Below the pieces are notes generated by a model. The model ran no database searches, was not told the origin of the DNA, and saw only the letters and a list, made by a program, of their open reading frames with translations. Shown piece after piece: positions 4,451-27,440 of a DNA stretch of 33,992 bases. Each line of letters opens with the position of its first letter. Within the stretch, counting starts at the first letter, position 1. The stretch comes from Acidobacteriota bacterium (GTDB taxonomy: Bacteria; Acidobacteriota; Terriglobia; Terriglobales; Acidobacteriaceae), in assembly GCA_003224755.1 (NCBI GenBank), contig QHZR01000021.1, forward strand, positions 1 to 33,992, given 5' to 3'. Position numbers and translations under genes: made by a program.

Positions 4451-5509
4451 TCAGTGATTTGAACCACGGTTCCCCCCTAATAACTCCCGATACAGATCCA
4501 GCACAGCGCGCAGGTTGCTTTCGTCGGGTGCCGCACCTGGGCATGGCGGCTTTGGCTCAGCCAGGGTCTCGATGATTGCCTTGGCGAGCATCGTCACGTC
4601 GGACTTAGGAATCAGCCGCACCGCCGCGGGGCGCATTCTGTTATCGGTGGCAATGACCGGAGTGCCAACATAGAGCGCTTCGCGAACCGACACCGCATCC
4701 CCATCGTAGAGGGTGGTCCGCAACATCACATGGCTTTCTCGTATAGCTTCCATGGTGATGAGGTGGGGAACATCTCCGTTCAGGAGGATGTGTTCGGCAT
4801 AGGGCTTGGATTGAATGGTTCGACGCAGCTCGCTTTCGAGGCTCCCAGATCCGATCATGATCAGACCTGACCTGGGAAACGCGCGCCGCACCGATTCGAG
4901 CACATCGACCTGCAAATTCAGTTGGTATTCGGATTCGAGCAGCCCTACCGAGATGAGTACGGGGCGATGTCGCTCAAAAAAGCTGTTCAGCGGCTCCGGA
5001 AAGCTCGGTGCGGTCTGATCCTCGACCAGGGCATGGGGATAGATGAGATGCCTATGTTCGGCGGGCACGCCGAGCCGGGCGAAGAAATCGATGATCTCCG
5101 GATTCACCCCAATGAGCGCGTCCAAACGTCGGAAAACAAAACCGGCGAATGATTTCGGGCGCGCTTGCTGCCCTTCGAGCGTCGAGGGATACCCGCCGGA
5201 ATGGAAGGTCACAACCGACCTGGTGCCGGGAACGAGGGAGCAGACATAAGCCAGGCGAACCAGCCGCCGGGTCAGCATGCCTCCAATATGGAGGTGAAGA
5301 ATGTCGTAGCGCAGGCGCAGAAGAAGCTGGAGCAGGCCGAACGCATTCCGGGGATAGTAGACCTCATCTCCTTCCGGCTTGCGATGACGGGTGATATTGA
5401 TGACCGCACACGGAATCCCCTGCTTCCTGAGGAAGCGTCGCAGGGCCACCAGATTGCTTTGTACTCCGCCATGGGGTGGCGGGTAGGGACCGAGCTGGAG
5501 CACTTTCAT
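4451..5509 (-). CDS. Glycosyltransferase family 4 (GT-B fold)
   Basis: A 352-residue retaining glycosyltransferase expected to act at the cytoplasmic face on a lipid-linked glycan. The N-terminus LQLGPYPPPHGGVQSNL is the glycine-rich acceptor-side loop of GT4 enzymes. A central VLISVGLLESEYQ strand opens the C-terminal Rossmann domain. DAVSVREALYVGTPVIATDN near residue 285 is the donor-binding E-x-A-x-x-G-x-P block. The ATG (5509) overlaps the stop of the upstream bi-domain oxidoreductase as ATGA, so the two are translationally coupled. It is the last gene of the 9581-to-4451 transcription unit. Sugar specificity is unknown. Confidence 0.9.
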   Translation of the reverse strand: MKVLQLGPYPPPHGGVQSNLVALRRFLRKQGIPCAVINITRHRKPEGDEVYYPRNAFGLLQLLLRLRYDILHLHIGGMLTRRLVRLAYVCSLVPGTRSVVTFHSGGYPSTLEGQQARPKSFAGFVFRRLDALIGVNPEIIDFFARLGVPAEHRHLIYPHALVEDQTAPSFPEPLNSFFERHRPVLISVGLLESEYQLNLQVDVLESVRRAFPRSGLIMIGSGSLESELRRTIQSKPYAEHILLNGDVPHLITMEAIRESHVMLRTTLYDGDAVSVREALYVGTPVIATDNRMRPAAVRLIPKSDVTMLAKAIIETLAEPKPPCPGAAPDESNLRAVLDLYRELLGGNRGSNH

Positions 5510-7689: not shown

Positions 7690-7730
7690 TCCGATCTTTC
7701 CCCTCAAGACTTGCAAACGCTGAGTGAAAA

Positions 7731-9581
7731 TTATGGAGCGACGCCGGCCACGGCCCGATCCAAGGCGTCCATATCGGCGCCAACCCCTTTGCCATCGCTA
7801 GCGGCCTGGTGATACGGGCTGGTGGTTAGCAGGTGATAGTTGCCGCCATTTCCATCCTGGAAGTTTGCCAAGCTCACGGCCTTCCAGTTCTTTGGGAAAA
7901 ACTGCGAGCAATTCTTGAGCACTCCACAGTGGGGAGTTTTCGGATAAGGGTCGCCTTCGGAGGCCAGCCTGCGACTATCGTATACAATCACGTTGTTAGT
8001 GAATACCCAGGTGCGGTTGAAGCAGCGTTCAAGCACCCCCCGCGCGCCATCCGGACCTGCGCAGCCTTTGTTTCCCCCGCCAATCGGAACGCCTTGAACG
8101 CCGTAGTCTCCCGAGCCTACGAGATTATTTCTGAACACAAAGTGGTCGAACATCTGGGGAGGGTTGGCAAAGGCCTTTAGAATACCAGACCCCACCGGGA
8201 AGCCCGTGTTATGTTCGATGGCGATCTCATGCGGCCAGTTGGAATGTTGGTCAGTCGTGATGGCCCAGAGCGCACCCCCGGTACAGCAACCACCATCGTA
8301 CGTGGGTTCGCTGATATCTTCAAAAAGATTGTCGTGAATAGACACGTTGTAGATGGGGCCGGAAAGGAAGTTGCAGCTGCCCGTTCCATTCCCGGCTTCG
8401 CCAATACAGGTGGTGGCTTTGGTAGCCGCGATCGCCATTGCATTTGCCGTATGCCGGACAACGTTCAAACGGAAAGTGAGGTCATGCACGACACAGGCTG
8501 GGCAGAGCCCGTACTGGTTCTTGGGGTATAGCAGAATGGCTGTGCCTTTCTGCGACTGTGTCCAGTTGTTCTCGAAAACATTTCCCTCGATCAACTCGCG
8601 AACCGAGTTCTTGGTCTCGTACAGGTTCTTGACCGCGAACTTAGTCCCGAAGTAGTTTGGACTCTTTTCCCACCAGGTGAGCGGCTTAAACACATGATTG
8701 TGACGGAACTCAATATCGGAGAGGGTGGTCTGAGCGCGCCCGCCGCCCCAGAGGATGCTGGCGCCGGCAGCTTCGAGGAAATTATTCACGACCTTAACCG
8801 GGCCGATTCCGGTCACCGAGCCGATAGCTGAGGAATCCGCTCCGTAAACCGAGGTTTTGGAATGAATGTCCGAGATGTAAGAGTCGACAACCCCAATATA
8901 GGAACTGTTCTCGAAATCGATGCCCTTGACGTCCTCGCCTAGGGCTGTCCCGTGGATCCAGCAACGGTCGAAGATTACGTGGTCAGCGTTTTTGAGCAAG
9001 ATCAAATCGTAATAACCGCCAGCGGCGCCATTTGCTGCGGTGTCGGCAATCTCGAGCCCGATGAAGCGGTAGTGATTGGCCCCAGCTGTGTTCGTGAGAA
9101 TTTTCGTTTCGCCCTTTGCTCCAGTGATTCGGGCCATCATCCGGTTGCTGGAATTGCACGGGAATGGAGGTCTGCCCGGCAGGGATGCGACTCCCGCATA
9201 GCAGGGGTTGATCCGAGTTCCCTCTGGAGGCAGGCTAGAATCGAGGCTACTCGTGCGTATCACGATCCAGTGAGCGTCATCGCAGGATTTGTCGGGTAAT
9301 TCGAAATATCCCGCATAGGTGACATCGGGCTGCAACTCGACTGTGTCGCCGCAGGCGGCACGGCGCAGGGAATCCTTAAGGCCGTCGGTATCTTTGGCTC
9401 GAAGCCTGTGGCCCGGTGCGGGGGTATCGACGAGCGAAGTCTTGACGTATAACCGCGGCAGCTCCGCTGGCCCGTCAAAACCCTTACCATCGGAAACCTG
9501 TCCTGTGGCGGGCGAGCAGCTAGCGATGAATAGGAGAATTAAGATCCACACCGAATTCGGTGGCATAATTCTGACGATCAT
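7731..9581 (-). CDS. Secreted beta-helix lipoprotein (pectate-lyase-like fold)
   Basis: A 616-residue exported protein. It has a short N-terminus, a hydrophobic core (VWILILLFIA) and IASC, a lipobox with the lipidated Cys at residue 22. The mature part has many short strand-turn units rich in Asn, Gly and Val (for example HVIFDRCWIHG, PVKVVNNFLEAAGA), typical of right-handed parallel beta-helix proteins. That fold includes polysaccharide lyases and mannuronan epimerases. It also has several Cys pairs. The whole mature region aligns with the C-terminal module of the 10729-13200 protein, including the tail GADxxxL-A-AGV. Start choice is ATG 9581; a second ATG at 9566 is possible. No catalytic residues could be assigned, so it may be a lyase, an epimerase or only a binding protein. 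Confidence 0.8.
   Translation of the reverse strand: MIVRIMPPNSVWILILLFIASCSPATGQVSDGKGFDGPAELPRLYVKTSLVDTPAPGHRLRAKDTDGLKDSLRRAACGDTVELQPDVTYAGYFELPDKSCDDAHWIVIRTSSLDSSLPPEGTRINPCYAGVASLPGRPPFPCNSSNRMMARITGAKGETKILTNTAGANHYRFIGLEIADTAANGAAGGYYDLILLKNADHVIFDRCWIHGTALGEDVKGIDFENSSYIGVVDSYISDIHSKTSVYGADSSAIGSVTGIGPVKVVNNFLEAAGASILWGGGRAQTTLSDIEFRHNHVFKPLTWWEKSPNYFGTKFAVKNLYETKNSVRELIEGNVFENNWTQSQKGTAILLYPKNQYGLCPACVVHDLTFRLNVVRHTANAMAIAATKATTCIGEAGNGTGSCNFLSGPIYNVSIHDNLFEDISEPTYDGGCCTGGALWAITTDQHSNWPHEIAIEHNTGFPVGSGILKAFANPPQMFDHFVFRNNLVGSGDYGVQGVPIGGGNKGCAGPDGARGVLERCFNRTWVFTNNVIVYDSRRLASEGDPYPKTPHCGVLKNCSQFFPKNWKAVSLANFQDGNGGNYHLLTTSPYHQAASDGKGVGADMDALDRAVAGVAP
8770..8843. repeat. 74-bp near-identical block shared with 11735-11808 (copy 1)
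   Basis: This segment of the beta-helix lipoprotein gene matches 11735-11808 in the paralogue at about 71 of 74 positions, in the same orientation. It encodes part of the SVTGIGPVK-VVNNFLEAAGA region. The flanking gene sequence is visibly more diverged. Confidence 0.85.
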
Positions 9582-10701: not shown

Positions 10702-10730
10702 AGGCGGCTGATTGCCACCGCTGGCCGCCT
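10702..10730. terminator. Bidirectional hairpin between convergent genes
   Basis: A perfect 7-bp inverted repeat AGGCGGC/GCCGCCT (10702-10708 with 10724-10730) and a 15-base loop lie in the 42-bp gap between the methyltransferase and the convergent Ig/beta-helix gene. On the minus strand the stem is followed by GAGGTTTTC and overlaps the stop codon. On the plus strand it is followed by ACTTTACG. The position fits a shared terminator, but the T-tracts are weak. Confidence 0.45.
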
Positions 10731-13200
10731 ACTTTACGCCAGCCGTTGCCGTCAGCAATCCGTTAATATCGGCACCCAAATCTTTCCCGTCGGTGCCGGC
10801 ATTTTTGTAAGGACTGGCGGAAGAAAGCTGATAGTTGCCATTTTGCCCGTTGTTGTAACTTGCCAGTCCGACGGAGGACCAGGTGGTCAGGTAGTTGCCT
10901 GGCGGATAGGGCTGATTCGACACGGAACCGGAGGTGACAGCCAGCACATTGTTGGTGAAGGTCCAGGTCGATCCCATGCAGCCATTCAGCAGGCCAACCG
11001 TTCCAGAGCCGGCGATGGTGCCACATCCAGGCAAGCCTCCCCCGGGCAAGGTCTGATGAAAGCCATAGCTTCCGGCACCCAATACGTTGTTGCTAAAAAC
11101 GAAATTGGTGAACACCTGGGGTGGGCCCTGAATAATGATATTTGCCGTACCTGAGCCTGTCGGGAAACCAGTGTTGTGATTGATCAGGATGTCATGCGGC
11201 CAATCCACGCTACTGGGCTCAAATGTATTGACCCCGAATAGGAACCCGTCAGAGCAGCACTGACCCGGGCTGTAGGTCGTCGCATTAATATCGTCGAGGA
11301 CATTGTCGTGAATGCTGAAGTGGTTAATGGGGCCAGAATAGTACAAACAAGGGCTTGTAGCGCCTGGTGCGCAAGTCGTGGCAGGCGTGTTTGAAATACC
11401 GATCGCATTAACCGCATGGGTGACGAGGTTATAGCGGAAGGTAATGTTTTGGACCGTACATCCCGGACAGCCTCCATACTGGTTCTTCGGATAGAACAGA
11501 ATCGCGGTGCCCCTCTGGGCCTGCGCCCAGTTGTTTTCAAAAATATTGGCTTCAACCAGCTCGCGTATTCCCATTTTGTTTTCAAACAAGTTCTTTACCA
11601 CAAAGGCGGTGCCGAAATACGACGAGCTTTGCTGCCACCACGTAAACGGCTTGAACACGTGATTGCGACGGAGTTCGACATCGGTGATGTTGGTTGCCGA
11701 GTAACCACCGCCCCACAGGATTGTGGCACCAGCGGCTTCAAGGAAATTATTCACGATCTTAACCGGGCCGATTCCGGTCACCGAGCCGACAGCTGAGGAA
11801 TCCGCTCCATAACCCGAGATCTTGGAGTGAATATCGGAAATATAGGAGTCGATTACAGCAATATAAGTACTGCTTTCAAAACCCACTCCCTTGACGTCTT
11901 CTCCGATTGCGGTTCCGTGAATCCAGCAACGATCCAAGATGATGTGGTCGGCAGCTTTGAGCAAAACCAAATCATAATAGCCGCCGGTAGCGCCGTTAGC
12001 CCCGGTATCGGCAATCTCCAGTCCGATCAATCGGTAATAGTTGGCACCCGTGGCATTGCTAATGATCTTACTTTGGGTTGCAACGCCAGCGATTTTTGCC
12101 ATCACATTGCCGATGGAGGAGCAATTCAAGGCTGGCCTTCCGGGCAAGAATGAAACCCCGGCGTAACAGGGGGTGGCGCGCGTGCCTTCAGGTGGAAGAC
12201 TGCTGAGCGCGCTGCTTCGAAGGGTTATATAGTGGCCAGCGTCACAATTCTTGGCATCCAAACTAAACCCAGCGTAGCTCTGGCCCGCCTGTAACACCAG
12301 GGTGTCCCCGCAGCTGGCTGTATTGAGGGCGGTTTGAACACTTGCACCGGCGGGAACCTGAATCACGTTACCCGGGGATGGCGTTCCTTGAGTGGCAGTG
12401 TAGAAACAGGTTGCGGGCAACGCGGCCGGTCCATCGCTGCCGCCGAAGTTAGGTGCGTCGCCGGGGTTGCAATAGCGATTGTCGGCTGCGCTTGGGCCGG
12501 GTCCCGGCGGTGGCGGCGGCGGAGGTACCGGTGGCCCCGAAGGTGGTGCGGTCACGGAAACTAACGCCGTGGCCGTCGAACTTGCATTGGCCAGCCTGGT
12601 GGCGTTCACGCTTACGTTTTGATTGGTGGTGACATTGGGTGCGGTGAAAAAACCGGATGACGAAATGCTTCCCGCACTAACCGACCAGGTAACTGCCGTA
12701 TTGCTCGTGCCCTCAATCTTGGCAGTGAACTGCTGGGTTCCTCCCGAGGTAATGGTCGCGCTGGTAGGCCAAATCGATATCTGCACGTTGGTCGGGCCAG
12801 AAACAACAATCGTGAAGACGTGGTCCCCAGAACCGCTGTATGGTTGATCGCTAACCTGAATTGAGAATGCATAACTCCCGACGGTCTTGGGCGTACCGGA
12901 AATCACGCCAGTATTGCTATTGAGTGCTAGCCCGGGAGGAAGCGTCTGCTTGAGCGAAAACTGGTAGGGTGATGGACCTCCCGTCGCTTTGAGCTCGGCT
13001 CGAAATTCTGTCCCGACGTAGGCGGCCGGCATCGTGCCAGTAACCGTGAGTTTCGTCGTGGCGGTTGCTGAGATCGTCAGAAAAGCGATAGCCAAGACAA
13101 GACACAGAAGACACATCGGAGCAGCGAAGACGGTTGTCGTGCACACTACAGCTGTGAATTTCGATCTAACCCAGTCGAGGCTTCTGGATGAGGGGGACAT
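10729..13200 (-). CDS. Large secreted protein: Ig-like domains, Pro-rich linker, beta-helix module
   Basis: About 823 residues. A long signal segment (LCLVLAIAFLTISATA) is followed by a putative Ig domain (about 52-135, with PPGLALNSNTGVISGTP). A second bacterial Ig-like domain (about 137-218, TITSGGTQQFTAKI) comes next, then a proline-rich linker (about 219-236). The rest is a beta-helix module homologous to the mature part of the 7731-9581 lipoprotein. The ATG at 13200 has GGAAGG four bases upstream, which decides against the longer 13269 start. It probably sits at the cell surface and binds or processes a polysaccharide through the helix; the Ig domains would act as spacers. Catalytic residues were not identified. 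It lies 253 bp downstream of the operon ending at 13454 and may have its own promoter. Confidence 0.82.
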   Translation of the reverse strand: MSPSSRSLDWVRSKFTAVVCTTTVFAAPMCLLCLVLAIAFLTISATATTKLTVTGTMPAAYVGTEFRAELKATGGPSPYQFSLKQTLPPGLALNSNTGVISGTPKTVGSYAFSIQVSDQPYSGSGDHVFTIVVSGPTNVQISIWPTSATITSGGTQQFTAKIEGTSNTAVTWSVSAGSISSSGFFTAPNVTTNQNVSVNATRLANASSTATALVSVTAPPSGPPVPPPPPPPGPGPSAADNRYCNPGDAPNFGGSDGPAALPATCFYTATQGTPSPGNVIQVPAGASVQTALNTASCGDTLVLQAGQSYAGFSLDAKNCDAGHYITLRSSALSSLPPEGTRATPCYAGVSFLPGRPALNCSSIGNVMAKIAGVATQSKIISNATGANYYRLIGLEIADTGANGATGGYYDLVLLKAADHIILDRCWIHGTAIGEDVKGVGFESSTYIAVIDSYISDIHSKISGYGADSSAVGSVTGIGPVKIVNNFLEAAGATILWGGGYSATNITDVELRRNHVFKPFTWWQQSSSYFGTAFVVKNLFENKMGIRELVEANIFENNWAQAQRGTAILFYPKNQYGGCPGCTVQNITFRYNLVTHAVNAIGISNTPATTCAPGATSPCLYYSGPINHFSIHDNVLDDINATTYSPGQCCSDGFLFGVNTFEPSSVDWPHDILINHNTGFPTGSGTANIIIQGPPQVFTNFVFSNNVLGAGSYGFHQTLPGGGLPGCGTIAGSGTVGLLNGCMGSTWTFTNNVLAVTSGSVSNQPYPPGNYLTTWSSVGLASYNNGQNGNYQLSSASPYKNAGTDGKDLGADINGLLTATAGVK
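11735..11808. repeat. 74-bp near-identical block shared with 8770-8843 (copy 2)
   Basis: Direct copy of 8770-8843 with about three mismatches, offset by 2965 bp. Both lie at the same place in two paralogous genes. It contains an uninterrupted identical run of about 32 bases. Confidence 0.85.
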
Positions 13201-13453
13201 GGCACCTTCCAAAAAATAAGAATCGGGCGAATGGCGATCTCTTCGGTACTCTATAGGCACGATTACCAACGTGGTAGATCACCAGAGGACCTGAACTTCG
13301 GGAACACACAGAAGTACATGACTGTTGACGAGTGGGCTTGACAATTAGAATTTCAGGAGATGTTTACGCCCGGCGACCGCCGGCAAAAATCGATGGCAAG
13401 CGATGGATGAGACGAGTAGCGAGCGAGTGACAGGTTACGGATGCGGAATGCTC

Positions 13454-14248
13454 TTAAGAAGTACGAGCGCGTTCTCGATTCAATAGCGACTTTCGCAGAT
13501 GCAGATAATAGGATCCGCCAACCTGCTTGGCAATCTTCTTCAAGTTCCAATACAGATATTGCTGCGCCCGAGGTGCCCATTGGCCACAAGCAATGCACGC
13601 GACAGTGTCCGCCGAAAGTCCTTGCTGAACGGAATATCGTCCCAGAACCATACAGCCATCTACGCGAATGATCTCTCGAGTGGGCTCGGAGTTGAACAGC
13701 ACTTCGATGCCTGCCGCGGCCGCGGTTTCAGCCACTTTCCGGCTGTAGTAACCTCCCGGAACCGACGCCACCCGCAGTCTCTCGCCGCAAGCATCCGACA
13801 ACACACGCAAGCTTTCGCGCCACTGTTCGTCGAGCTGCGCACGCGAGCAGCTTGACATACGTGCCGGATGCGAACAGGAATGACTACCGATCACGTGGCC
13901 GCGGGTATGGAGCTCTCGAATTTCGGCGAGTGCTAAGAATTGCGACTTGCCGATCCAATCCGTAGTGATGAAGAAATGTCCGCGAAAGCCATATTGTTCG
14001 AGCAGCTCCGCGGCGTGAAGTGCACCACGGCCACCATCATCGAACGTGAATAGAACCGAGGCCTGATCGTCGCCGACGGTTGCGGCGCTCGCCAGCGTCT
14101 TGGAACTTTCGACGCGGCTGCCGATTTCCCCCAGATGCTCGCGAAATACAGGAATCTCCAGCTTGTAAATATCGGCATCTCCGCCGGAAAATCCGCTCGT
14201 CGAGAACTGACCCACGGGTACTACATCGTGATAGAGCAGGGTGATCAT
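13454..14248 (-). CDS. Polysaccharide deacetylase (NodB/CE4 family)
   Basis: About 264 residues. It starts MITLLYHDVVP, the usual first strand of these deacetylases. TFDDGG (68-73) carries the catalytic Asp and first metal ligand, and HSCSHP (123-128) carries the two zinc-binding His. The family removes N- or O-acetyl groups from sugars. The ATG at 14248 overlaps the formyltransferase stop as ATGA, which fixes this start over the longer 14311 frame and implies coupling. No signal peptide is seen, so a cytoplasmic or lipid-linked substrate is possible. It is the last gene of the operon that begins at 20409. The family is firm; the substrate is unknown. Confidence 0.9.
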   Translation of the reverse strand: MITLLYHDVVPVGQFSTSGFSGGDADIYKLEIPVFREHLGEIGSRVESSKTLASAATVGDDQASVLFTFDDGGRGALHAAELLEQYGFRGHFFITTDWIGKSQFLALAEIRELHTRGHVIGSHSCSHPARMSSCSRAQLDEQWRESLRVLSDACGERLRVASVPGGYYSRKVAETAAAAGIEVLFNSEPTREIIRVDGCMVLGRYSVQQGLSADTVACIACGQWAPRAQQYLYWNLKKIAKQVGGSYYLHLRKSLLNRERARTS

Positions 14249-15087
14249 ATGGGCCGACGTTTCGCCGCGCGCTTCCAGCTGAGGTATCTCGTCATCCAGG
14301 GCTGGCCCCATGCAGCCGACTTCCTGCCGGTCACGTCGATGGGGATGGCTTCGCGGCGGTAAATGCTGGTGAGTTGCGCTTGAATATCGTCCAGGTTCTC
14401 GAACACGGTTCGATGCTGGATTATGATGTGCGAATCTTCGATTTCATCGAGCTGACAATGATAGAAGGCGAAGATGGGGCCGGTGTCGACGCCACGATCG
14501 ATGCGCAGCAGGGTCATACCCACCCGCTCCAGGTCACGATTCGCCAGCGCCCAAAAACAGCCGTGTGCGTTGCGGTATTCCGGACAGATTCCAGGATGCA
14601 TGACGAAGGTCCCGCAAGTGGGAATGCTAAAGATTTCCTCTTTAAGGATCACCTTGCAGCGGGCGATCATGAGATCGGGTTTTGCTTGCGCTATAAAATT
14701 TTTCGCAGGCGCGGAATTGGGCGAGGCGCACTCGAGTACGGGCGTACGGACAGGTATTTCCGGGTAACGATCGAACAGTTCGGCCCGTTTCTGCTCCTCC
14801 CAACGCCGATCGGCGCGGGCCAGAAACAGGCGGTAGTAAAGGCGAAAGAGCACGACGTCCAAGAAGCCAAATAGACCCACGCGCTTGACCTCGCGCTGAA
14901 TGCGACGCCGCTTTTGTCTTCCCGTCTCTCGCAGCGCGATAATGCCCGCGAGGGTAGAAAACGAAGCCAGCCAGCGCGGCACCACAACCCGGTTCAGCAT
15001 CTCCTCTTGATGACAAATCAAGAGAATCCGCATGCTTTCGGCCGGGTTGCTTTTCTCGGCTGAGTCGAGTTGGTTCGGAGCGCTCAT
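14245..15087 (-). CDS. Formyltransferase-family protein (sugar N-formyltransferase-like)
   Basis: About 280 residues. The C-terminal half has the formyltransferase core: MHPGICPEYRNAHGCFWAL with the conserved His at about 164, then RIDRGVDTGPI with Asp at about 201. This matches the His/Asp catalytic pair of the methionyl-tRNA and sugar N-formyltransferases, which use 10-formyl-tetrahydrofolate. The N-terminal ~130 residues lack a clear match to tRNA formyltransferase, and the context is EPS, so an amino-sugar substrate is inferred. The start is uncertain: ATG 15087 is 11 bp after the GT2 stop, while ATG 15033 would give MRILLICH. Neither has a strong ribosome site. The stop overlaps the deacetylase start. 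Confidence 0.8.
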   Translation of the reverse strand: MSAPNQLDSAEKSNPAESMRILLICHQEEMLNRVVVPRWLASFSTLAGIIALRETGRQKRRRIQREVKRVGLFGFLDVVLFRLYYRLFLARADRRWEEQKRAELFDRYPEIPVRTPVLECASPNSAPAKNFIAQAKPDLMIARCKVILKEEIFSIPTCGTFVMHPGICPEYRNAHGCFWALANRDLERVGMTLLRIDRGVDTGPIFAFYHCQLDEIEDSHIIIQHRTVFENLDDIQAQLTSIYRREAIPIDVTGRKSAAWGQPWMTRYLSWKRAAKRRPI

Positions 15088-15098
15088 GGGGGCACGGA

Positions 15099-16244
15099 CT
15101 ATGTCCACACCACCGGTTGACGTTTCTCGCCGGCAGCAGTAGTTTGTCTTCCCGGCCAGATCACGTGATAGAACCAGGCAAATAGAGCAGCATTGATCAT
15201 GCAGAAATAAAAAGGCATGCGCAGCAACTTTGGTTTCAGCCAACCGACGGCGCCGAGGGCAGCCAGACCGTAAAACAGGATCTCGAAAAACAGCAGGGCG
15301 CGATAGAAGGGTAAGCGCCACAGTGCCGCGTTCGCGGCGAAGGCTGCCAGCATCGCGATGGGGACTAGGATTCGCGTTCCCTTGTGAGAGAGAAAACAAA
15401 ACAGTGCCAGCGGGCGTGAAACCAGTCCGGGAATCTCGCGCATCTGTTCCAGATTGCCGGCCATGATGCGAACCCGCCGTCCGAATCCCGCCATCTCGTC
15501 CGCCTCCTCATAGGCAACAGCTTCGGGTTCATAGGCGATGCGCAAGCCGCGCTTGAGTACGCTGGTCGGAATTACGAAATCATCATTAATGCTTGTCGGC
15601 GGTGGAAATGGGTACAGCTGTTTGCGCAAGCCGTAAAGGGATCCATGGGCTCCGGCCAGCGCACCCAGCCTGGCTTCCTGAAGTTTCACGAAGGTCTCAT
15701 ACTTCCAGTAGAAGTCTTCCTGGTGTCCGAGCCTGGTGGATTCCTTATCGAGAACCCGGTAAACCCCGCTTGCGGCTCCGACACTCGGATCGGCAAAGTT
15801 AGCTACGAGCTTGCGCAGGGCGTCGCCCGCCAGCATGCTTGAAGCGTCGGAGAAAACGATGATTTCCCCCTGCAATTGCGAGACCGCCTCGTTCAGCGCC
15901 GCGACTTTGCCGCGGTTCACAGGAAACTCCAGTAAGCGCACGCGATTTTCGCGCTCGGCCAAGGAGCGAACGATCTCGGCCGTCAGATCAGTCGAGCCGT
16001 CCGAGGCGACCACAATCTCCAACTTGCTTTGAGGGTAGTCGAGTTGGAGCGAATTGCTAATCTTTTCCTCGATGACTGGGGCCTCGTTGTAAGCGGCGAT
16101 GAGCAGCGAGATCGAAGGCTCAATCGCAGACTTCTCGACCGGCCTCGGGAAGAGGCTCTGCAGGGCCCAAAGCAGCACGGGGTAAGCCACGTACGCATAG
16201 ACAATGAGCGCCAGAGAAATCCAGAAGATGAGCTGGACTGCCAT
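15099..16244 (-). CDS. Membrane-anchored glycosyltransferase family 2
   Basis: A 381-residue processive-type GT2. One N-terminal membrane helix (residues ~5-30) precedes the GT-A domain. IAAYNE (49-54), SDGSTD (81-86) and a SDAS acidic motif (132-135) bind the nucleotide sugar. A later NDDF and a GRRVRIMAGNLEQM segment stand where Q/RxxRW-type acceptor motifs usually are. Three hydrophobic segments close the C-terminus. The family polymerises or adds beta-linked sugars at the inner membrane. It begins 3 bp after the methyltransferase stop and ends 11 bp before the formyltransferase ATG, inside the 20409-13454 operon. Confidence 0.9.
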   Translation of the reverse strand: MAVQLIFWISLALIVYAYVAYPVLLWALQSLFPRPVEKSAIEPSISLLIAAYNEAPVIEEKISNSLQLDYPQSKLEIVVASDGSTDLTAEIVRSLAERENRVRLLEFPVNRGKVAALNEAVSQLQGEIIVFSDASSMLAGDALRKLVANFADPSVGAASGVYRVLDKESTRLGHQEDFYWKYETFVKLQEARLGALAGAHGSLYGLRKQLYPFPPPTSINDDFVIPTSVLKRGLRIAYEPEAVAYEEADEMAGFGRRVRIMAGNLEQMREIPGLVSRPLALFCFLSHKGTRILVPIAMLAAFAANAALWRLPFYRALLFFEILFYGLAALGAVGWLKPKLLRMPFYFCMINAALFAWFYHVIWPGRQTTAAGEKRQPVVWT

Positions 16245-16247
16245 AGT

Positions 16248-16898
16248 TTAGACCGCTTTCGACTCCACACAGTAGAGCTGGCCGTAGATTTCTGAGGACT
16301 GAACTTGAAATCCGGCGCGACTTAGGTAGTCGGTCACCGCTTCTTCAGTCCAGAAGTAAACCGGGCAGCCGGCGATCTTGAGGCGTTGTTTGCGGATTCG
16401 AGCGCGCAAAGTTCCGGCACGCGGCCAGGCCGAGAGGAAGCGGTCCCGGGTGATGCTGCGAATGACCTGAAGGCGCGGCAAAGGATCGCCGACGTAATCC
16501 CAGAAGCCGATGGCGATCACGAGGTCAAACTGCCGGTCCGTCTTCCAATCCTGAATGTCGCTGAGAACAAAGTCGCAGCGCTCGAGGACACCGTCTTTGC
16601 TCACCAGGGCTTTGGCAAGTTGCAGCATGTTGGGAGCAAAGTCGAGCCCAGTTACTCGAGCGCCGCGCTGAGCGAGCGCGCTTACGAAACGCCCGGACCC
16701 GCAGCCAACATCGCAGACCGTCTGCCCGCGGCAATCATCAGCCTTGCGCACGACCCAGTGAAAGCGCTCGTACATGTCGCGGCGTAGCCACCGATCTAGC
16801 AGCCGCGCCACGGGATTCTTATTGCCGGTATAAATCGTGTCAAATTGCGGTGCAATACGGTCCCAGTATTCCGCTATCTGCCGGGTTTCATCTTGCAT
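16248..16898 (-). CDS. SAM-dependent class I methyltransferase
   Basis: 216 residues. The SAM loop VCDVGCGSGRF is at 61-71, followed by VTGLDFAPNML with the acidic residue after strand 2. FDLVIAIGFWDYV is the motif IV region. The ATG (16898) has GGGGGAA just upstream and overlaps the stop of the upstream deacetylase by 11 bp. It fits O- or N-methylation of a sugar or lipid-linked intermediate, but the target is not deducible. Confidence 0.88.
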   Translation of the reverse strand: MQDETRQIAEYWDRIAPQFDTIYTGNKNPVARLLDRWLRRDMYERFHWVVRKADDCRGQTVCDVGCGSGRFVSALAQRGARVTGLDFAPNMLQLAKALVSKDGVLERCDFVLSDIQDWKTDRQFDLVIAIGFWDYVGDPLPRLQVIRSITRDRFLSAWPRAGTLRARIRKQRLKIAGCPVYFWTEEAVTDYLSRAGFQVQSSEIYGQLYCVESKAV

Positions 16899-17817
16899 TG
16901 TTCCCCCAAGTATGAGCCTGAGCCAACCCCGCCAGGCCGCTATTTCGAAAACTTGTAAAACTGCCGCCGTCGAGCATGTCCGCCAAGCGACGGTAGGTTT
17001 TTCCCAGATTAGTGTAATGCCGCAGTCGTGATATTAGGCGCCCATTCAGTCGCGGTTGCCCCGGATCGATCTCCCAAGGGTGAACGTAGGCAATGACCGG
17101 CAGATTTTCGGCCTGAGCGCGTCGCATTCCTAAGCGCGTATACCAGGTTGGCAGCAGCCGTAGGTATCCGCCCCCGCCAAAAGGCAGATTGCGCTCGCCC
17201 CAAAGCCGGAAAGTGGCGATGGGATACTCGAGCAGTGGGCCGGAAGGGGTGTCCAGCTGAAAGGGCCCCCGCGGCGCGTCGGGGATGCCATAGCGATCGT
17301 GATGAATGGGAAAAATGCTGGAGTCGTAAGTAAAACCTGTTTCCACTAGGATCTCGGCCGCCCACAGCGAGCGAGTGACGATGGAATAGGTTGGAGCGCG
17401 ATAGCCGCGGAGCGGAACTCCGGCGATCTGCTCGATGGTTTCCTTGGCCCGATGGGTATCTTCACGGAATTCACTTCGATCAAGCTGATACACCATGCGA
17501 TGCCAGTAAGAGTGACAGGCCAGTTCGTGTCCAGCGGCGGCAGTGTCGCGCACCAGCTGGGGACAACGTTCGGCGACCCAGCCCAGCACGAAAAATGTCG
17601 CTTCGAGCTCGAGTTCCGAGAACAGGTCCAGCAAGCGACGGGTGTTAGGTTCGACCCGACTCTCGTACGATCCCCACTGAGAGCGGTCGACGTTGGCGGC
17701 AAACGCCTCGGCGTGGAAATAGTCTTCGACATCGACTGAGATCACATTTTTAAATGTGGCGTCGGGCGAAGCCACGGCCACGCTTTGGTCGAGTCCGAAT
17801 TGTTCCTGCTTAAGCAT
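16888..17817 (-). CDS. PEP-CTERM/XrtA-locus-type polysaccharide deacetylase
   Basis: 309 residues. It has the distinctive VDVEDYFH opening (28-35), replacing the usual TFDDG of NodB proteins. The zinc motif HSYWH (101-105), RGYRAPTYSI (about 137-146) and the late VHPWEIDPGQPRL block follow. This set defines the deacetylase subfamily found with exosortase/PEP-CTERM EPS loci (NodB domain plus the C-terminal DUF3473 region). It is expected to deacetylate an EPS sugar. It starts 4 bp after the GT4 stop and overlaps the methyltransferase start by 11 bp. The subfamily call is strong, although no exosortase is present in this window. Confidence 0.92.
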   Translation of the reverse strand: MLKQEQFGLDQSVAVASPDATFKNVISVDVEDYFHAEAFAANVDRSQWGSYESRVEPNTRRLLDLFSELELEATFFVLGWVAERCPQLVRDTAAAGHELACHSYWHRMVYQLDRSEFREDTHRAKETIEQIAGVPLRGYRAPTYSIVTRSLWAAEILVETGFTYDSSIFPIHHDRYGIPDAPRGPFQLDTPSGPLLEYPIATFRLWGERNLPFGGGGYLRLLPTWYTRLGMRRAQAENLPVIAYVHPWEIDPGQPRLNGRLISRLRHYTNLGKTYRRLADMLDGGSFTSFRNSGLAGLAQAHTWGNNAR

Positions 17818-17821
17818 CGCT

Positions 17822-19054
17822 CTACGCGCTCGCGTTCAAGACTGCAAGGCTTTGTTTGTCGACAATTTGGGCAAGGATATCGCCGAATTCACTCGCGACC
17901 TTTCGCCAGCTGTAGTTTTCTTCCACGAGTTTCCGAGAGGTCATGCCCAGCCGCAAGCGCTCCCCCGTGTTGGCAAACAGTGAGATTACACATTCGGCGA
18001 AATGCCAGGGTTCATCCGCAATGAGAATGTGTTCACCATCCCGCACCGGCAGACCTTCTGCGCCCACGGAAGTCGAAACCACGGGCTTGCCCATCGCCAT
18101 GGCTTCGAAAATCTTGATACGCGTGCCGCCACCTATGCGGAGGGGAACGATCGATACCGCCCCACGGGCTAGGTAAGGCCGGATATCCTCTACCCAGCCG
18201 GTAATGTGAATGTTGTTTCGCTTGGCCGCCAACTCCTCTAAACTTCTTGAAGGCTTCCGCCCGATCACCCAGAGTGAAACGTCGGGAACCTGTTGGCGTA
18301 TGAACGGCAAGATCTCTTCTACAAAATAGAAGATGGCATCCTGGTTCGGCAGCCAATCCATAGAGCCAGTGAAGACGATCGAATTCGGCATCTCTGGCCC
18401 GGAAGTAGGCTGGAAGTATTCGGTATCCACGCCGGTTGGAATCGTACTCAGCTTTCTGGACCCGAGAAAGCGTGCAAAGGTGCCACGATCGTTTTCTGAA
18501 ACCGTGAGTACGTGGTCGGCGAGCCCAAGATAATGTTGTTCGGCACGCTGCATCTTTTTCCACTCCAGCCAACAGAGCCACTTCCACAGTAGATTGCTTG
18601 TGACCTCGTAATGGCGTCGCCAAATCAAAGCTTCCACATTGTGAGTGAACAGGACTTTGGGGCAGGCGAGGTCCCAGGGTATCGCGCCTGCGGCGAAAAT
18701 GAAATCGCATAGGATGACATCATAAGCTTCGCGCTCGGCGAGCTTCCGCAATTCAGCTCTCACCCGTTGCCGGCAATATTTCCCGATGCTGTAAGGCTCG
18801 GGAGAAAGACTCCGGGCGGAGTAGTCCAGGAATTCCCCCCAACCCCTGGCCGCGGGCAGCTGCAACGGAATACAGACCACCCGATCAAAGATGCTCTCCA
18901 GGTCCGGGTGGGCATCGCTCGCGTGGGCACCATAGAAGGAGAAGAAAGTCACGCGATGATGCAATGCCAGTTCGCGAAGGATACTGTAGCTGCGGATTTT
19001 TCCTCCCGTATCAGGAGGAACTAAGCCACCGGCTTTAACCCACAGGATCTTCAT
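17822..19054 (-). CDS. Glycosyltransferase family 4, exosortase-locus type
   Basis: About 410 residues. MKILWVKAGGLVPPDTGG gives the N-terminal acceptor loop. LFTHNVEALIWRRH and VLTVSENDR lie in the first GT-B domain. GGGTRIKIFEAMAMGKPVVS is the donor-binding E-x7-E-type block. This arrangement is like the sugar transferases seen with PEP-CTERM/exosortase EPS clusters. I placed the start at ATG 19054, 29 bp after the dehydrogenase stop with GGGGAA upstream; a longer frame from 19093 would overlap that gene. Second gene of the operon. Confidence 0.88.
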   Translation of the reverse strand: MKILWVKAGGLVPPDTGGKIRSYSILRELALHHRVTFFSFYGAHASDAHPDLESIFDRVVCIPLQLPAARGWGEFLDYSARSLSPEPYSIGKYCRQRVRAELRKLAEREAYDVILCDFIFAAGAIPWDLACPKVLFTHNVEALIWRRHYEVTSNLLWKWLCWLEWKKMQRAEQHYLGLADHVLTVSENDRGTFARFLGSRKLSTIPTGVDTEYFQPTSGPEMPNSIVFTGSMDWLPNQDAIFYFVEEILPFIRQQVPDVSLWVIGRKPSRSLEELAAKRNNIHITGWVEDIRPYLARGAVSIVPLRIGGGTRIKIFEAMAMGKPVVSTSVGAEGLPVRDGEHILIADEPWHFAECVISLFANTGERLRLGMTSRKLVEENYSWRKVASEFGDILAQIVDKQSLAVLNASA

Positions 19055-19083
19055 AGGAAATTTCCCCAAGGCATAGGCCGACG

Positions 19084-20409
19084 CTACCAGCAAAGGCCTT
19101 GGTACGTGCCGGCGCGGTCGATACGGCGCTCTTTCTCCAGGTTCACTAGATCAATCACAATGTGATTCTCACGAATTCCAGCGGCCAGCGCTTGCTTATC
19201 CAGACCGCGGGTGGCGATGACGACAACCTGGGCTTTGCCTAGCACCTTCTCGAGACTGGCGCACAAAAGCGAACCGATATGGGGAATCACTTCCTCAATG
19301 TACTGACGATTGGAGCCGATGAGGCGGCCGAGGGAAACGTTATCGTCCCAGATCTGAACGTGCCGGCCCTCCCCGAGCAGACGTTTCACCAACTGCACCT
19401 GCGGGCTTTCTCGTAGGTCATCAGTGGCTGCTTTGAAGCTGAGGCCCAGAACGGCCACATTTTCTTTGCCGCTTTCAAGAATCATTTGAATGGCGCGCTC
19501 CAGATGCTGCTGGTTGCTGGGAAGGACAGCTTCGAGTAGCGGTAGCTCCAGATCCAATTCCTTGGCGCGGTAGTTCAGCGCCCGCACATCCTTCGGCAGG
19601 CAAGAGCCGCCGAAGGCGAAACCTGGTTTGAGATAGCTGGCTGAAATGTTGAGCTTCGCGTCAGCGGTAAAGATTTCGGTCACCGCCTCCGCATCCACAG
19701 CCAATTCCTTGGCCAGAGTCCCCACTTCGTTGGCAAAGGAAACTTTAAGAGCATGCCAGGCATTGGAAACGTATTTCACCATCTCCGCCGCCCGAAACGA
19801 GGTTTCAAAAATCCGGCCCGGAGCCCAGGCGTAAAGTTCACGTAAAATTCCGCTTTGGACGCGATCGGCGGCTCCGATAACGGTCATTGCCGGTTCCAGG
19901 AAGTCAGCGACAGCCGTACCTTCTCGCATGAATTCGGGATTGACACAGACGGAGAAATCCTTCCCCATGCGCTTTCCGCTCGCCTGTTCCAGTGTGGGAA
20001 TGACGAGACTCTCCGCGGTTCCGGGCAGCACTGTGCTGCGCAGCACCACCAGATGAAAAGAATCTTTTTGCCTCAAGGTCTCCCCGATCTGGCGACAGAC
20101 AGGTTCAATATGTCCCAGGTCGAGTTTGCCACTGCGCAGGCTAGGGGTGCCCACACATAGAAAGGAGATTTCGCTATTGAGAATCGCGGAGGCGAGATCG
20201 GCGGTAGCATGCAGTCGGCAGGCGCGATGGGCTTCGCTAATCAGCTCCTGTACACCCGGCTCCATGATGGGGCTACGACCGGCATCCATGGACTCGACCT
20301 TGGTGAGGTTCAAGTCCACACCTATGACCCGATTGCCCTTGTCGGCCAGGCAAGCAGCAGTGATCGTTCCCACGTATCCTAAGCCAAAGACGCTGATCGA
20401 GCGGCTCAT
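19084..20409 (-). CDS. algD: GDP-mannose 6-dehydrogenase (AlgD-like), UDP-Glc/GDP-Man dehydrogenase family
   Basis: 441 residues, the usual AlgD length. The NAD loop GLGYVG is at 9-14. The catalytic Cys270 lies in PGFAFGGSCLPKDVRAL, and the protein ends in GLCW. These features, together with RSTVLPGT and LSFKAATDDLRESP, resemble Pseudomonas AlgD (Cys268, ending in GICW) more than UDP-glucose dehydrogenases. The reaction would be a four-electron oxidation of GDP-mannose to GDP-mannuronate in the cytoplasm, feeding a uronate-containing glycan. It heads a seven-gene operon and faces the divergent GT4 across a 332-bp promoter region. UDP-glucose dehydrogenase activity remains an alternative. Confidence 0.87.
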   Translation of the reverse strand: MSRSISVFGLGYVGTITAACLADKGNRVIGVDLNLTKVESMDAGRSPIMEPGVQELISEAHRACRLHATADLASAILNSEISFLCVGTPSLRSGKLDLGHIEPVCRQIGETLRQKDSFHLVVLRSTVLPGTAESLVIPTLEQASGKRMGKDFSVCVNPEFMREGTAVADFLEPAMTVIGAADRVQSGILRELYAWAPGRIFETSFRAAEMVKYVSNAWHALKVSFANEVGTLAKELAVDAEAVTEIFTADAKLNISASYLKPGFAFGGSCLPKDVRALNYRAKELDLELPLLEAVLPSNQQHLERAIQMILESGKENVAVLGLSFKAATDDLRESPQVQLVKRLLGEGRHVQIWDDNVSLGRLIGSNRQYIEEVIPHIGSLLCASLEKVLGKAQVVVIATRGLDKQALAAGIRENHIVIDLVNLEKERRIDRAGTYQGLCW

Positions 20410-24363: not shown

Positions 24364-26313
24364 ATGTGTGGAATTTGCGGGATTTTTTATCGCGATAAGC
24401 GCCGAGCGATCGATCCCGACACGCTCGCGCAGATGAACTGGCGCATCGCACATCGTGGTCCGGATGACGACGGCTTCTTCATCGAAGAAAACATCGGATT
24501 GGCCATGCGCCGGCTTAGCATCATCGATCTCAAGACTGGGCATCAGCCGATCACGAACGAGGATGAGAGCCTATGGATCGTCTATAACGGCGAGATCTAC
24601 AATCACCAGCAACTCCGCGATGATTTACAGGCGCGCGGGCATCGCTATAAAAGCAAAAGTGACACCGAGAGTATTCTTCACGTGTATGAGGAATACGGTC
24701 CAGGATCGGTTGCGCACCTAAGGGGTATGTTCGCTTTTGCCATTTGGGATCGACGAAGCCGGCGTTTGTTTTTAGCGCGTGACCGCCTGGGCATCAAACC
24801 GCTCTACTACCGCTGGGATGGACAGACTCTGCTATTTGGCTCCGAGATTAAGGCTATTCTTGCCTATCCCCAACTGAAGGCGGAATTCAACCCCGGCACT
24901 TTGCGGGAATATCTCGCGTTCGGCTACATTGCCGGGGCGGAAACTATGTTTGCCGGAATTCGGAAGCTGCTTCCCGGACATACCCTGGAGCTGGACGAGT
25001 CGGGCGAGTTGACCGTCAAACCATATTGGGATCTGTCCGCGTCACCCGAGACCGATCACCGACCTCGTAGTTACTATGTCAACCGTTATCGCGAGCTGCT
25101 CGAGGAGGCTGTTTCCAGCCACCTCATGAGTGATGTGCCCGTGGGCGTGTTCCTCAGCGGAGGTCTGGACTCGAGCGCGGTAGCGGCGCTAGCCACCAGA
25201 ATCCGCAAAGAGCCAATTGAAACCTTTTCCGTGGGATATGGCGAGGAGGGCTACAGCGAGTTGCCCTATGCCCGGCAAGTGGCCGATCACTTGGGCTCAA
25301 AGCACCACGAAGTTCGGCTCAGCCGTCAGGAATTCTTTGAGAGCTTGCCACAACTCATCTGGCATGAGGACGAGCCCATCGTTTGGCCATCCAGCGTTTC
25401 CCTGTACTTTGTGGCTCGGCTTGCCCGCGAACGCGTGACGGTGGTCCTCACCGGAGAAGGCAGTGATGAAACCTTAGCCGGGTACGCGCGCTATGCCTGG
25501 ACACTCAAGAACACCCGCATGGACACGGCTTATCGGCTGCTGGCACCGGAGATCCTGCGCCGCTCAATTCGCGCTGGCATCCGCTCCAGCCCTCTTCCGG
25601 CCGCGCTCTATCGCAAGCTCGAGCATACGTTCCTCGTGCGCGATGGAAGTTCGTGGGCGTCGTTCTATTTCGACAATTTTTACTCTGCCATTTCATCCAG
25701 CGAAGCCGATGCTTTGTTGATGGATGAGGTGAAGGCCAGCGCAGGAGATGCCTATGACGCTTCCATGTTTCACTGGGCGAAATCTTCCGGCGACTTGCTT
25801 CATCGCCTTCTCTATACCGATATCAAAACCTACCTGGTTGAGTTGCTGATGAAGCAGGATCAGATGAGCATGGCGGCATCGATCGAAAGCCGGGTCCCCT
25901 TCCTGGATCACGCCTTGGTGGAATTCACGGCCCGTATCCCGGCGGAATATTCCATCCATGGTTTCGCTGGGAAATCGATTTTAAAATCCGCAATTGAAGA
26001 TCTCCTACCCCGCTCGATCGTGTATCGCAAAAAGATGGGATTTCCTACGCCCTGGTCCTATTGGCTGGAACAGCCGCAACTTGCGGACTTGCGACGGCTA
26101 CTGCTTGAAGGACGAACCCTCGAGCGAGGATGGTTCAAGAAGGCCACAATTGAACATCTGTTCCGAGAACATGCTGCCGGCCGTCGCGATCACGGAAACC
26201 GTATCTGGCGCCTATTAAGCCTGGAGATCTGGATGAGGGTATTCCTCGACGGACAAACTCCAGCCATGCAGCCACCAGTTTTGGAGTTTTCCAAGAGCGT
26301 GGCGCCGCGATAG
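24364..26313 (+). CDS. asnB: Asparagine synthase-type amidotransferase (XrtA-locus type)
   Basis: 649 residues with both AsnB domains. Cys2 of MCGICGIF is the glutaminase nucleophile. RRLSIIDL and YNGEIYN follow in the N-terminal Ntn domain. SGGLDSS (265-271) is the PP-loop for ATP, and RVPFLDH is in the synthetase domain. AAGGTGAGAG precedes the ATG, 6 bp after the heparinase stop. In EPS loci this type is thought to amidate a uronic acid or amino-acid substituent, or to make asparagine; the context cannot decide. A second, partial paralogue lies at 2-442. If mannuronate is the building block, its carboxylate is a plausible acceptor (inference). Confidence 0.93.
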   Translation: MCGICGIFYRDKRRAIDPDTLAQMNWRIAHRGPDDDGFFIEENIGLAMRRLSIIDLKTGHQPITNEDESLWIVYNGEIYNHQQLRDDLQARGHRYKSKSDTESILHVYEEYGPGSVAHLRGMFAFAIWDRRSRRLFLARDRLGIKPLYYRWDGQTLLFGSEIKAILAYPQLKAEFNPGTLREYLAFGYIAGAETMFAGIRKLLPGHTLELDESGELTVKPYWDLSASPETDHRPRSYYVNRYRELLEEAVSSHLMSDVPVGVFLSGGLDSSAVAALATRIRKEPIETFSVGYGEEGYSELPYARQVADHLGSKHHEVRLSRQEFFESLPQLIWHEDEPIVWPSSVSLYFVARLARERVTVVLTGEGSDETLAGYARYAWTLKNTRMDTAYRLLAPEILRRSIRAGIRSSPLPAALYRKLEHTFLVRDGSSWASFYFDNFYSAISSSEADALLMDEVKASAGDAYDASMFHWAKSSGDLLHRLLYTDIKTYLVELLMKQDQMSMAASIESRVPFLDHALVEFTARIPAEYSIHGFAGKSILKSAIEDLLPRSIVYRKKMGFPTPWSYWLEQPQLADLRRLLLEGRTLERGWFKKATIEHLFREHAAGRRDHGNRIWRLLSLEIWMRVFLDGQTPAMQPPVLEFSKSVAPR

Positions 26314-26360: not shown

Positions 26361-27440
26361 ATGTTAAAAACCATAGGGCGGGCGGTTCTCAAAGTCCTGC
26401 GCAGCGCGCGCGTTTTTGAAAGGGTTGCCAATAGTAGCTGGCGGAGGAACCGGCTGCTCATCCTGTGCTATCACGGCGTTGCCCGCGGCGACGAGCACCT
26501 CTGGCGGCCACATCTTTATATGCATCCCAGCCTCTTTCGGCAGCGGCTGGAGCTCCTGAAGCGCGGAAACTACAACGTCCTTCCCTTAGCAACCGCCTTG
26601 GCGCGGCTTCGCCAGCAAGATTTGCCCGAGCGTAGCGTTGCCATCACTTTTGATGACGGCGCCTTTGACTTCTACGATCAGGCTTATCCGCTCGTCAAAA
26701 GCTACGGTTTTCCGGTAACGGTTTACCAAACCACCTACTACAGCGAATATTCAAAGCCGGTTTTCAATCTGATTTGCTCCTACATGCTATGGAAGCGGAG
26801 GGGATCGGTGCTCCCGGATGGAAAACCAATCGGGCTGCCCGGATCGCTCGACCTGAAGACAGAAGCGAGGCGCATCGAGATCGTGCGCTCGTTACTTCGC
26901 ACCTCGGAGGCGGATGGGATGACGGGAGCGCAAAGGAATGATTTGGCTGCGCGGTTGGCCGAGCTGTTGCACTTGGATTATGACCAGATTCTGGCCAACA
27001 GGACTCTGCAGCTGATGAACCGTGACGAGATCGCGCTATTGGCTGCCGAAGGCGTCGACTTCCAACTGCATACCCATCGCCATTCGACTCCGATTGATGA
27101 GAAGCTCTTTCGCAAGGAGATCCAGGATAACCGCCGCTACCTCCCGCAATCGGGCAGAAATGCCGTCCACTTTTGCTATCCGAGCGGTGTGTATCGCGAC
27201 GATTTTCTACCCTGGTTGCAGGCAGAGGGAGTCATTTCGGCCACCACATGCAATCCCGGCCTGGCATCGGGCGACGCAGACCCGTTTCTGCTTCCTCGGC
27301 TGGTAGACACCTCCGAGATCAGCGCCGTGGAATTCGAGAGCTGGCTGACAGGAATCCGCCCGCTGCTCCGCTCGCCTAAACCTGCGCCCAGGATCGTGCC
27401 CATCGCGGCTGGGCGCAGCTCTCAAGTAATGATCGACTGA
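26361..27440 (+). CDS. Polysaccharide deacetylase (NodB/CE4 family)
   Basis: 359 residues. LLILCYHGVARGD begins the domain, TFDDG (96-100) holds the catalytic Asp, and LHTHRHS supplies the HxxxH metal-type motif near residue 235. An insertion of about 100 residues between TFDDG and the His motif makes it longer than the 264-residue copy at 13454. A late HFCYPSGVY block is typical of the family. It follows asnB by 47 bp and is the last gene of the plus operon, converging on cysQ with only 6 bp between stops. Third deacetylase of the locus. Confidence 0.9.
   Translation: MLKTIGRAVLKVLRSARVFERVANSSWRRNRLLILCYHGVARGDEHLWRPHLYMHPSLFRQRLELLKRGNYNVLPLATALARLRQQDLPERSVAITFDDGAFDFYDQAYPLVKSYGFPVTVYQTTYYSEYSKPVFNLICSYMLWKRRGSVLPDGKPIGLPGSLDLKTEARRIEIVRSLLRTSEADGMTGAQRNDLAARLAELLHLDYDQILANRTLQLMNRDEIALLAAEGVDFQLHTHRHSTPIDEKLFRKEIQDNRRYLPQSGRNAVHFCYPSGVYRDDFLPWLQAEGVISATTCNPGLASGDADPFLLPRLVDTSEISAVEFESWLTGIRPLLRSPKPAPRIVPIAAGRSSQVMID

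Follow-up and report, generated by a model that had tools for sequence, protein, structure and literature searches.

A widespread pairing of an asparagine-less formyltransferase-fold gene with a NodB-type deacetylase gene and its possible role in N-acyl exchange on amino sugars

In the present study, a strong and wide linkage was observed between two bacterial genes, one encoding a formyltransferase-fold protein (FT) and the other a NodB/CE4-type de-N-acetylase (DAC), which share four bases in the window, the whole stretch of 33,992 nucleotides analysed here from an Acidobacteriota bacterium (contig QHZR01000021.1). Herein, we propose that the two proteins might form a two-enzyme N-acyl exchange module, in which de-N-acetylation of an amino sugar is followed by its N-formylation, and we give this proposal about an even chance. 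DAC, as a metal-dependent de-N-acetylase whose CE4 fold is of the PgaB/IcaB/PplD kind, would take the acetyl group off an N-acetylhexosamine in a cytoplasmic glycan intermediate, and FT would add a formyl group from 10-formyl-tetrahydrofolate to the freed amine, turning NHAc into NH-CHO; overlap of the genes and the fusions that occur naturally would hold the two steps together. From the genes and their overlap, the conserved residues, the predicted folds, the co-occurrence and the fusions observed in the present study, we infer the two reactions and the order in which they occur, as well as the formyl donor, the substrate and its location.

The gene pair and its cluster in the window

The FT frame ends with TGA at 14247-14245 and the DAC frame starts with ATG at 14248, and thus ATGA is common to both. 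The preliminary description, which had reported a formyltransferase stop and a deacetylase start sharing ATGA within 13454-15087, was correct in both the overlap (14248-14245, minus strand) and the range. The mechanical list of open reading frames contains longer frames, with DAC beginning at an ATG at 14311 and the FT frame open to 15399. The DAC start at 14248 is backed by homologues aligning from an MITLLYHDV-like start. FT homologues mostly match from about residue 17-20, close to the second Met (about 15033), and the FT start at 15087 is, on sequence grounds, one of two possible candidates, the other being that at about 15033. DAC matches the Pfam family Polysacc_deac_1 at 74.9 bits (cut-off 23.1), and FT matches Formyl_trans_N at 35 bits (cut-off 26.1), a match that covers only profile positions 72-169 of 181. 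Overlaps of four bases are common in bacterial operons; taken alone, that between FT and DAC is ordinary, but the pairing of the two genes is not. The exact four-base overlap was observed in 30 of 70 pairs and any overlap in 43 of 70, counting the window, with starts chosen heuristically and a few DAC frames split or cut by contig ends.

FT and DAC are the last two of seven tightly spaced minus-strand genes running from 20409 down to 13454 (Table 1). By its sequence matches, the cluster in the window resembles exosortase-A (XrtA/PEP-CTERM) exopolysaccharide clusters, with TIGR03006 matched above its cut-off and TIGR03087, TIGR03108 and the XrtA-like genes below theirs; the exosortase XrtA model matches two genes, on two other contigs, at 202.2 and 200.6 bits, just below the cut-off of 208. 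The sugar dehydrogenase of the window appears not to be specific for N-acetyl sugars, which speaks against the exchange: UDP-glucose dehydrogenase models outscore the UDP-ManNAc and UDP-GlcNAc models, and an aminouronate, suggested by this enzyme together with the asparagine-synthase-like protein, is therefore only a guess. For the product, a precedent is provided by the O-antigen of P. aeruginosa PAK, which holds D-GalNFmA (PMC4773840, excerpt), and WbpS has been described as making uronamides (PMC3684757, excerpt).

Table 1. Positions of the gene pair, of other genes of the window and of genes near DAC at two loci without FT
Feature	Position	Strand	Remarks
FT	14245..15087	minus	formyltransferase-fold protein, 280 aa; V162-x-H164 replacing N-x-H; D197, D201 kept
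DAC	13454..14248	minus	NodB/CE4-type de-N-acetylase, 264 aa
ATGA	14245..14248	minus	FT stop and DAC start in common
Family 2 glycosyltransferase	15099..16244	minus	directly upstream of FT; best NCBIfam match PgaC/IcaA, 92.6 bits, far below cut-off 422.3
SAM-dependent methyltransferase	16248..16898	minus	
Second deacetylase, XrtA-system type	16888..17817	minus	TIGR03006, 344.1 bits, cut-off 276.2
Glycosyltransferase, TIGR03087-like	17822..19093	minus	246.3 bits, below cut-off 316.65
NDP-sugar dehydrogenase	19084..20409	minus	TIGR03026, 384.4 bits, cut-off 189.8
Asparagine-synthase-like amidotransferase	24364..26313	plus	TIGR03108, 578.3 bits, below cut-off 816.9; cluster context
Third deacetylase, PgaB-like	26361..27440	plus	matches far below cut-off; cluster context
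ATP-grasp and PHP genes near DAC	L161:2181-4275; L162:1849-3794		loci without FT

Several other features of the window were also observed. The third, PgaB-like deacetylase has no adjoining formyltransferase, and its relative at another locus (L164, 53.5 bits) adjoins a canonical one. A single 736-aa frame at 5506-7716 combines a zinc-dehydrogenase domain with a GFO/IDH/MocA oxidoreductase domain. In addition, two large proteins, encoded at 7731-9581 and 10729-13269, are similar on visual comparison; an Ig-like He_PIG match was found for one and no Pfam match for the other.

Occurrence of the pair and its genomic neighbours

A scan of species genomes with FT revealed 95 relatives, of which the best 80 were used (45-62% identical), and these, together with the window and three further loci, made up 84 loci. 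The loci were picked by FT alone, and the presence of DAC is therefore not built into the counts. DAC lies next to FT on the same strand in 73 of the 84 loci, forms one open frame with it in two and is absent in nine, where loci with DAC split between frames (L045, L057) or cut by a contig end (L064, L101) are counted as adjacent. When the window (L005) and two apparent repeats (L007 of L062, and L008 of L079) are left out, the pair is adjacent in 70 of 81 loci and in one frame in two, with DAC absent in nine. The record titles, taken as given for MAGs and including one that looks wrong, name Acidobacteria, Planctomycetes, Nitrospirae, Gemmatimonadetes, Chloroflexi, Proteobacteria, Cytophagales and others. 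Thus, the pair, whose absence from other genomes had been named in the preliminary description as grounds for rejecting a functional coupling, is conserved across many phyla as judged by title.

In both one-frame cases, FT comes first and DAC second. The fusion at L114 (548 aa), from an isolate of Pinirhizobacter soli, is encoded on a contig of 2.2 Mb; that at L059 (551 aa), where the record title gives about 5-fold coverage for the contig, might result from a frameshift error. Among the nine loci without DAC, the contig ends within 200 bases downstream in two (L068, L091), and the other seven (L065, L080, L082, L088, L090, L097 and L113) are all planctomycete by title; a close DAC is encoded elsewhere in one of these seven genomes, only distant ones in five and none in one.

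From the side of DAC, profile searches of 396 genomes of the phylum of the window, 334 of the phylum of genome G448 and 338 of the order of genome G455 gave 22 close DAC genes, with FT adjacent or fused in 18, or in 16 of 19 without the three genomes on which the searches were centred (the window's own, G448 and G455); several of these genomes are also among the loci found through FT, and the two counts are not independent. In the phylum of the window, the six matches at E 1e-90 or better were used of 30 listed, and the other 24 are more distant (about 1e-30 to 1e-44), with two of them in the window's own genome. FT itself is present in 4 of the 396 genomes at E 1e-40. Four loci carry DAC without FT (L120, L199, L132 and L133): the genome of L120, G448, has FT elsewhere, at L065, and no FT was found in the 12-kb region of L199, which has a gene in common with Dyella-type loci. 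The absences are provisional, as the genome searches scored part of the first-look candidates, namely six per genome in the FT and DAC searches of the window's phylum, seven in the other DAC searches and three in the search for the second family described below.

The distances of FT and DAC co-vary (r = 0.726 for 66 pairs; the highest of 1000 shuffles gave 0.159). Together with the patchy and wide occurrence, this result fits a two-gene unit that was inherited and moved together, although shared descent alone would also give co-variation. On plasmids, tblastn with FT gave six partial matches, 28-38% identical, none of which covers more than 80% of the query.

These distributions bear on an alternative in which FT and DAC work on different nitrogens or sugars of one glycan, one of which ends up formylated and the other as a free amine. 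The window encodes three deacetylases, so deacetylation need not feed formylation, and the loci with one partner (the seven planctomycete loci with FT and no DAC, and 4 of the 22 DAC genes with no FT) agree with separate tasks and count against the exchange. However, consecutive steps are made more likely by the two fusions and by the genes being nearly always adjacent, and we consider this alternative unlikely.

A second family of paired genes was also revealed. The contigs of L062 and L164, which carry FT and DAC as well, encode a different formyltransferase with an intact N-x-H motif, which is fused to another deacetylase in L062 (577 aa) and adjoins one in L164. With the L062 fusion as query, 17 of 396 genomes yielded 19 matches, and the 11 examined of the 18 non-query matches comprise one fusion (L168, 644 aa), eight genes with an adjacent deacetylase (among them L174, a repeat of the L164 pair) and two without, resembling ordinary Fmt. 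Formyltransferase-deacetylase coupling thus also occurs with the canonical catalytic motif. In the genome of the window, which is 87% complete, no second-family gene was found among the four Formyl_trans_N genes. The record of L062 (CALQCC020000024.1) is titled Bordetella parapertussis, a title that looks wrong; the same 577-aa protein occurs in G054, a genome listed under the window's class.

The preliminary description had named an amino sugar of an exopolysaccharide (EPS) as the target. The cluster of the window and some other loci are linked to glycan genes, but this target may be too narrow, as 21 of 50 loci longer than 14 kb are without a homologue above 100 bits of the other cluster genes of the window. 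Glycan genes are present at two of these 21, with PIG-L, an ABC-2 transporter and a DegT aminotransferase beside or near the pair at L050 and a family 2 glycosyltransferase beside it at L093, and the marker counts therefore miss some glycan clusters. At L036, a signal peptidase and an alpha-amylase adjoin the pair. In six loci chosen for missing window markers, no glycosyltransferase was observed among the 25 families listed of 114 (60 genes), while one-member families beyond these 25 could hold others. The pair thus seems not to be confined to EPS clusters like that of the window.

No third constant partner was seen among the neighbours clustered or scanned, and a single glycosyltransferase family accounts for at most 13 of 44 upstream and 7 of 39 downstream neighbours, where the scans covered 44 of 73 upstream and 39 of 69 downstream genes, on the same strand only. 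The neighbouring genes were called greedily by length, and five frames of L072 without a Pfam family are probably wrong frames. A protein family recurs near the pair in Dyella/Luteibacter-type loci (L161:9481-10740, L201:5688-8195 and L096:6544-8022), the member at L096 being without a Pfam match.

Two wider regions around DAC genes without FT (L161 and L162, for L132 and L133) contain ATP-grasp proteins, 37% identical over 386 positions and above the Pfam cut-off in L162 only, together with PHP-domain proteins, which are likewise homologous to each other. Single-sequence searches with these proteins found no homologue in the other scanned loci, all but one of which bear FT or DAC, within flanks of up to 8 kb. 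Directly upstream of DAC, L161 has a methyltransferase-like gene and L162 a gene with a weak resemblance to glycosyltransferases, each of which overlaps DAC by four bases if DAC begins at the first start codon of its frame. The replacement of FT by a ligase, at two loci only, is a lead and not a result.

Folds and conserved residues of the two proteins

Enzymes of the CE4/NodB family carry Asp-Asp and His-x3-His motifs. DAC has the family model (PF01522), the fold and both motifs, and D70, D71, H123, H127 and H7 are invariant in 44 rows; no signal peptide is evident by eye. The predicted structure (pLDDT 92) gave VIA Z scores of 26.1 with BA0330, 25.6 with PplD, 23.2 with IcaB, 22.5 with PgaB and 12.8 with ArnD (8t0j), the last being 13 below the best, and no ArnD model is among the eight NCBIfam matches of DAC. 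Judged from sequence and model, DAC looks complete as a deacetylase.

These scores bear on a further alternative, a transient N-formylation as in the Arn pathway, in which FT would formylate a nucleotide amino sugar, a glycosyltransferase would pass it on and DAC would act as an ArnD-like deformylase. ArnA is among the relatives of FT, ArnD is a NodB-fold enzyme among the structural matches of DAC, and a family 2 glycosyltransferase lies directly upstream of FT in the window. Despite these resemblances, the fold of DAC is far nearer to PplD, IcaB and PgaB than to ArnD, no glycosyltransferase is a constant partner of the pair among the same-strand neighbours scanned, and the neighbouring glycosyltransferase scores only 20.9 bits with the ArnC model (cut-off 529); moreover, fusion of a formyltransferase with a deformylase of the same substrate would serve no purpose. 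An Arn-like role therefore appears rather unlikely.

The model of FT (pLDDT 92) shows a formyltransferase fold with a long helix of 52 residues at 56-107, for which hydropathy, the only guide to membrane association, is not decisive. Of the features of the family PF00551, the fold and the catalytic His and Asp are present, and the Asn and the HxSLLPxxxG motif are missing. The catalytic His (H164), the catalytic Asp (D201) and the second Asp of the D-x-G-x-D-T-G loop were observed in all 85 FT rows, which count the window and two other loci twice, whereas the catalytic Asn two residues before the His is replaced by Val in 83 rows and by Ala in two. His164, Asn173, His175, Cys177, Asp197 and Asp201 occur in every one of the 85 rows and Cys168 in 83, and many other residues are invariant, including the protein's own motif HPGICPEYRNAHGCFW. 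This strict conservation speaks against a decaying gene. The formyltransferase motif has been given as HxSLLPxxxG, with Leu109 and Leu110 proposed to line the ligand site (PMC4388273, excerpt); FT reads HPGICPEYRN instead, and its Cys168 aligns with Leu110 in an alignment read by eye. As controls, Asn was found in all three paralogues of the window's own genome and in 19 of 19 motifs found in other loci, with no motif found in 10 of the 29 control loci on either strand. In the tree, a branch (100/99) has all 20 Val-type rows on the same side; their sister group is unsure, as the closest Asn-type row sits on a long branch.

The missing Asn is the main point that a specialist would want explained, as this residue has been called crucial in FMT, ArnA and GART (PMC4388273, excerpt). 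In the same excerpt, 10-formyltetrahydrofolate dehydrogenase (FDH), a hydrolase, has Ile104 where the others have Asn, and changing this Ile to Asn cut the hydrolase activity to less than 10%. V162 of FT lies at the position of Ile104, and FDH chains are the top matches of FT in the PDB both by sequence and by Foldseek. FT might accordingly be no formyltransferase, acting as a 10-formyl-tetrahydrofolate hydrolase or transferring another acyl or one-carbon group. However, a hydrolase would have no evident use beside a deacetylase, the VIA Z scores of Fmt (18.6), the hydrolase domain of FDH (18.1) and ArnA (17.5) lie within about 1 of each other and are too close to pick transferase over hydrolase, and the many invariant residues fit any of these activities, so that we regard this reading as improbable. 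Action only on initiator tRNA, which the preliminary description had set as its other ground for rejection, is unlikely, as the genome holds three other Formyl_trans_N genes, one of them a separate Fmt-like gene with the Fmt-type motif INLHASLLPKYRG.

The proposed exchange and known systems

The conserved pairing, the fusions, the co-varying distances, the second paired family and the residues and predicted folds together make the exchange of acetyl for formyl plausible, and the fusions in particular argue for consecutive steps. Against the exchange, the Asn is gone in the whole FT family, and the known relative with a hydrophobic residue in its place, FDH, is a hydrolase. The paired reaction of the preliminary description, in which the deacetylase frees an amine for the formyltransferase, has thus gained from the fusions, the co-varying distances and the second family and lost from the missing Asn and the loci with one partner; the reaction itself is still something that we infer.

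A broader hypothesis, which we offer as speculative and improbable, is that DAC is the constant half of an N-acyl editing cassette with exchangeable second enzymes, by which the acyl group would be rewritten on finished N-acetyl sugars. The second enzyme would usually be the Asn-less FT, possibly carrying the formyl group on the conserved C168 or C177 instead of using Asn-assisted direct transfer, and an ATP-grasp ligase with a PHP-domain protein would take its place in some clusters.

Most known N-formyl amino sugars come from nucleotide-sugar pathways, where the amine is introduced by an aminotransferase. If the exchange is true, it would provide a route to N-formyl sugars from abundant N-acetylhexosamines, N-formyl groups would be expected in the glycans of many bacteria that have received little study, and the need for an Asn described as crucial in formyltransferases would be put to the test. 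No paper on the pair was found among the titles and abstracts listed by searches of the open-licence literature, and the main text of a survey of PEP-CTERM/EpsH systems (PMC1569441) contains no word starting with "formyl"; an excerpt of PMC4172580 uses both words in an unrelated sense, and excerpts of PMC7281560 and PMC3210612 describe formamido groups on other sugars only.

Compared with known systems, FT shares with the sugar N-formyltransferases (the N-domain of ArnA, WbkC, VioF and WlaRD; Formyl_trans_N) the fold (the ArnA and WbkC matches down to rank 23 have VIA Z scores of 16.3-17.5), the catalytic His and Asp, the D-x-G-x-D-T-G loop and, at part of its loci, a glycan cluster, and it differs from them in the absence of the catalytic Asn and of HxSLLPxxxG, in its 52-residue helix and in its place beside a deacetylase. 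The hydrolase domain of FDH (ALDH1L1) is the best PDB sequence match and likewise has a hydrophobic residue for Asn; unlike FDH, FT has a two-gene bacterial context and its own motif. DAC resembles the de-N-acetylases PgaB, IcaB and PplD in fold over about 205 residues (Z 22.5-25.6); unlike PgaB and IcaB, it has no match to the PgaB or IcaB NCBIfam models at E 0.001 and lies beside FT. The ArnA-ArnC-ArnD pathway also unites a formyltransferase fold with a NodB fold, but FT scores only 39.7 bits with the ArnA model (cut-off 777), the ArnC model is likewise far from its cut-off, and the fold match to ArnD is much weaker than those to PgaB and IcaB. Finally, NodB frees an amine that NodA then re-acylates with a fatty acyl group. 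The acyl group and the second enzyme differ from those proposed here, and DAC scores 33.8 bits with the NodB model TIGR04243, below the cut-off of 240; in both systems, however, a NodB-fold enzyme would free an amine for re-acylation by its neighbour.
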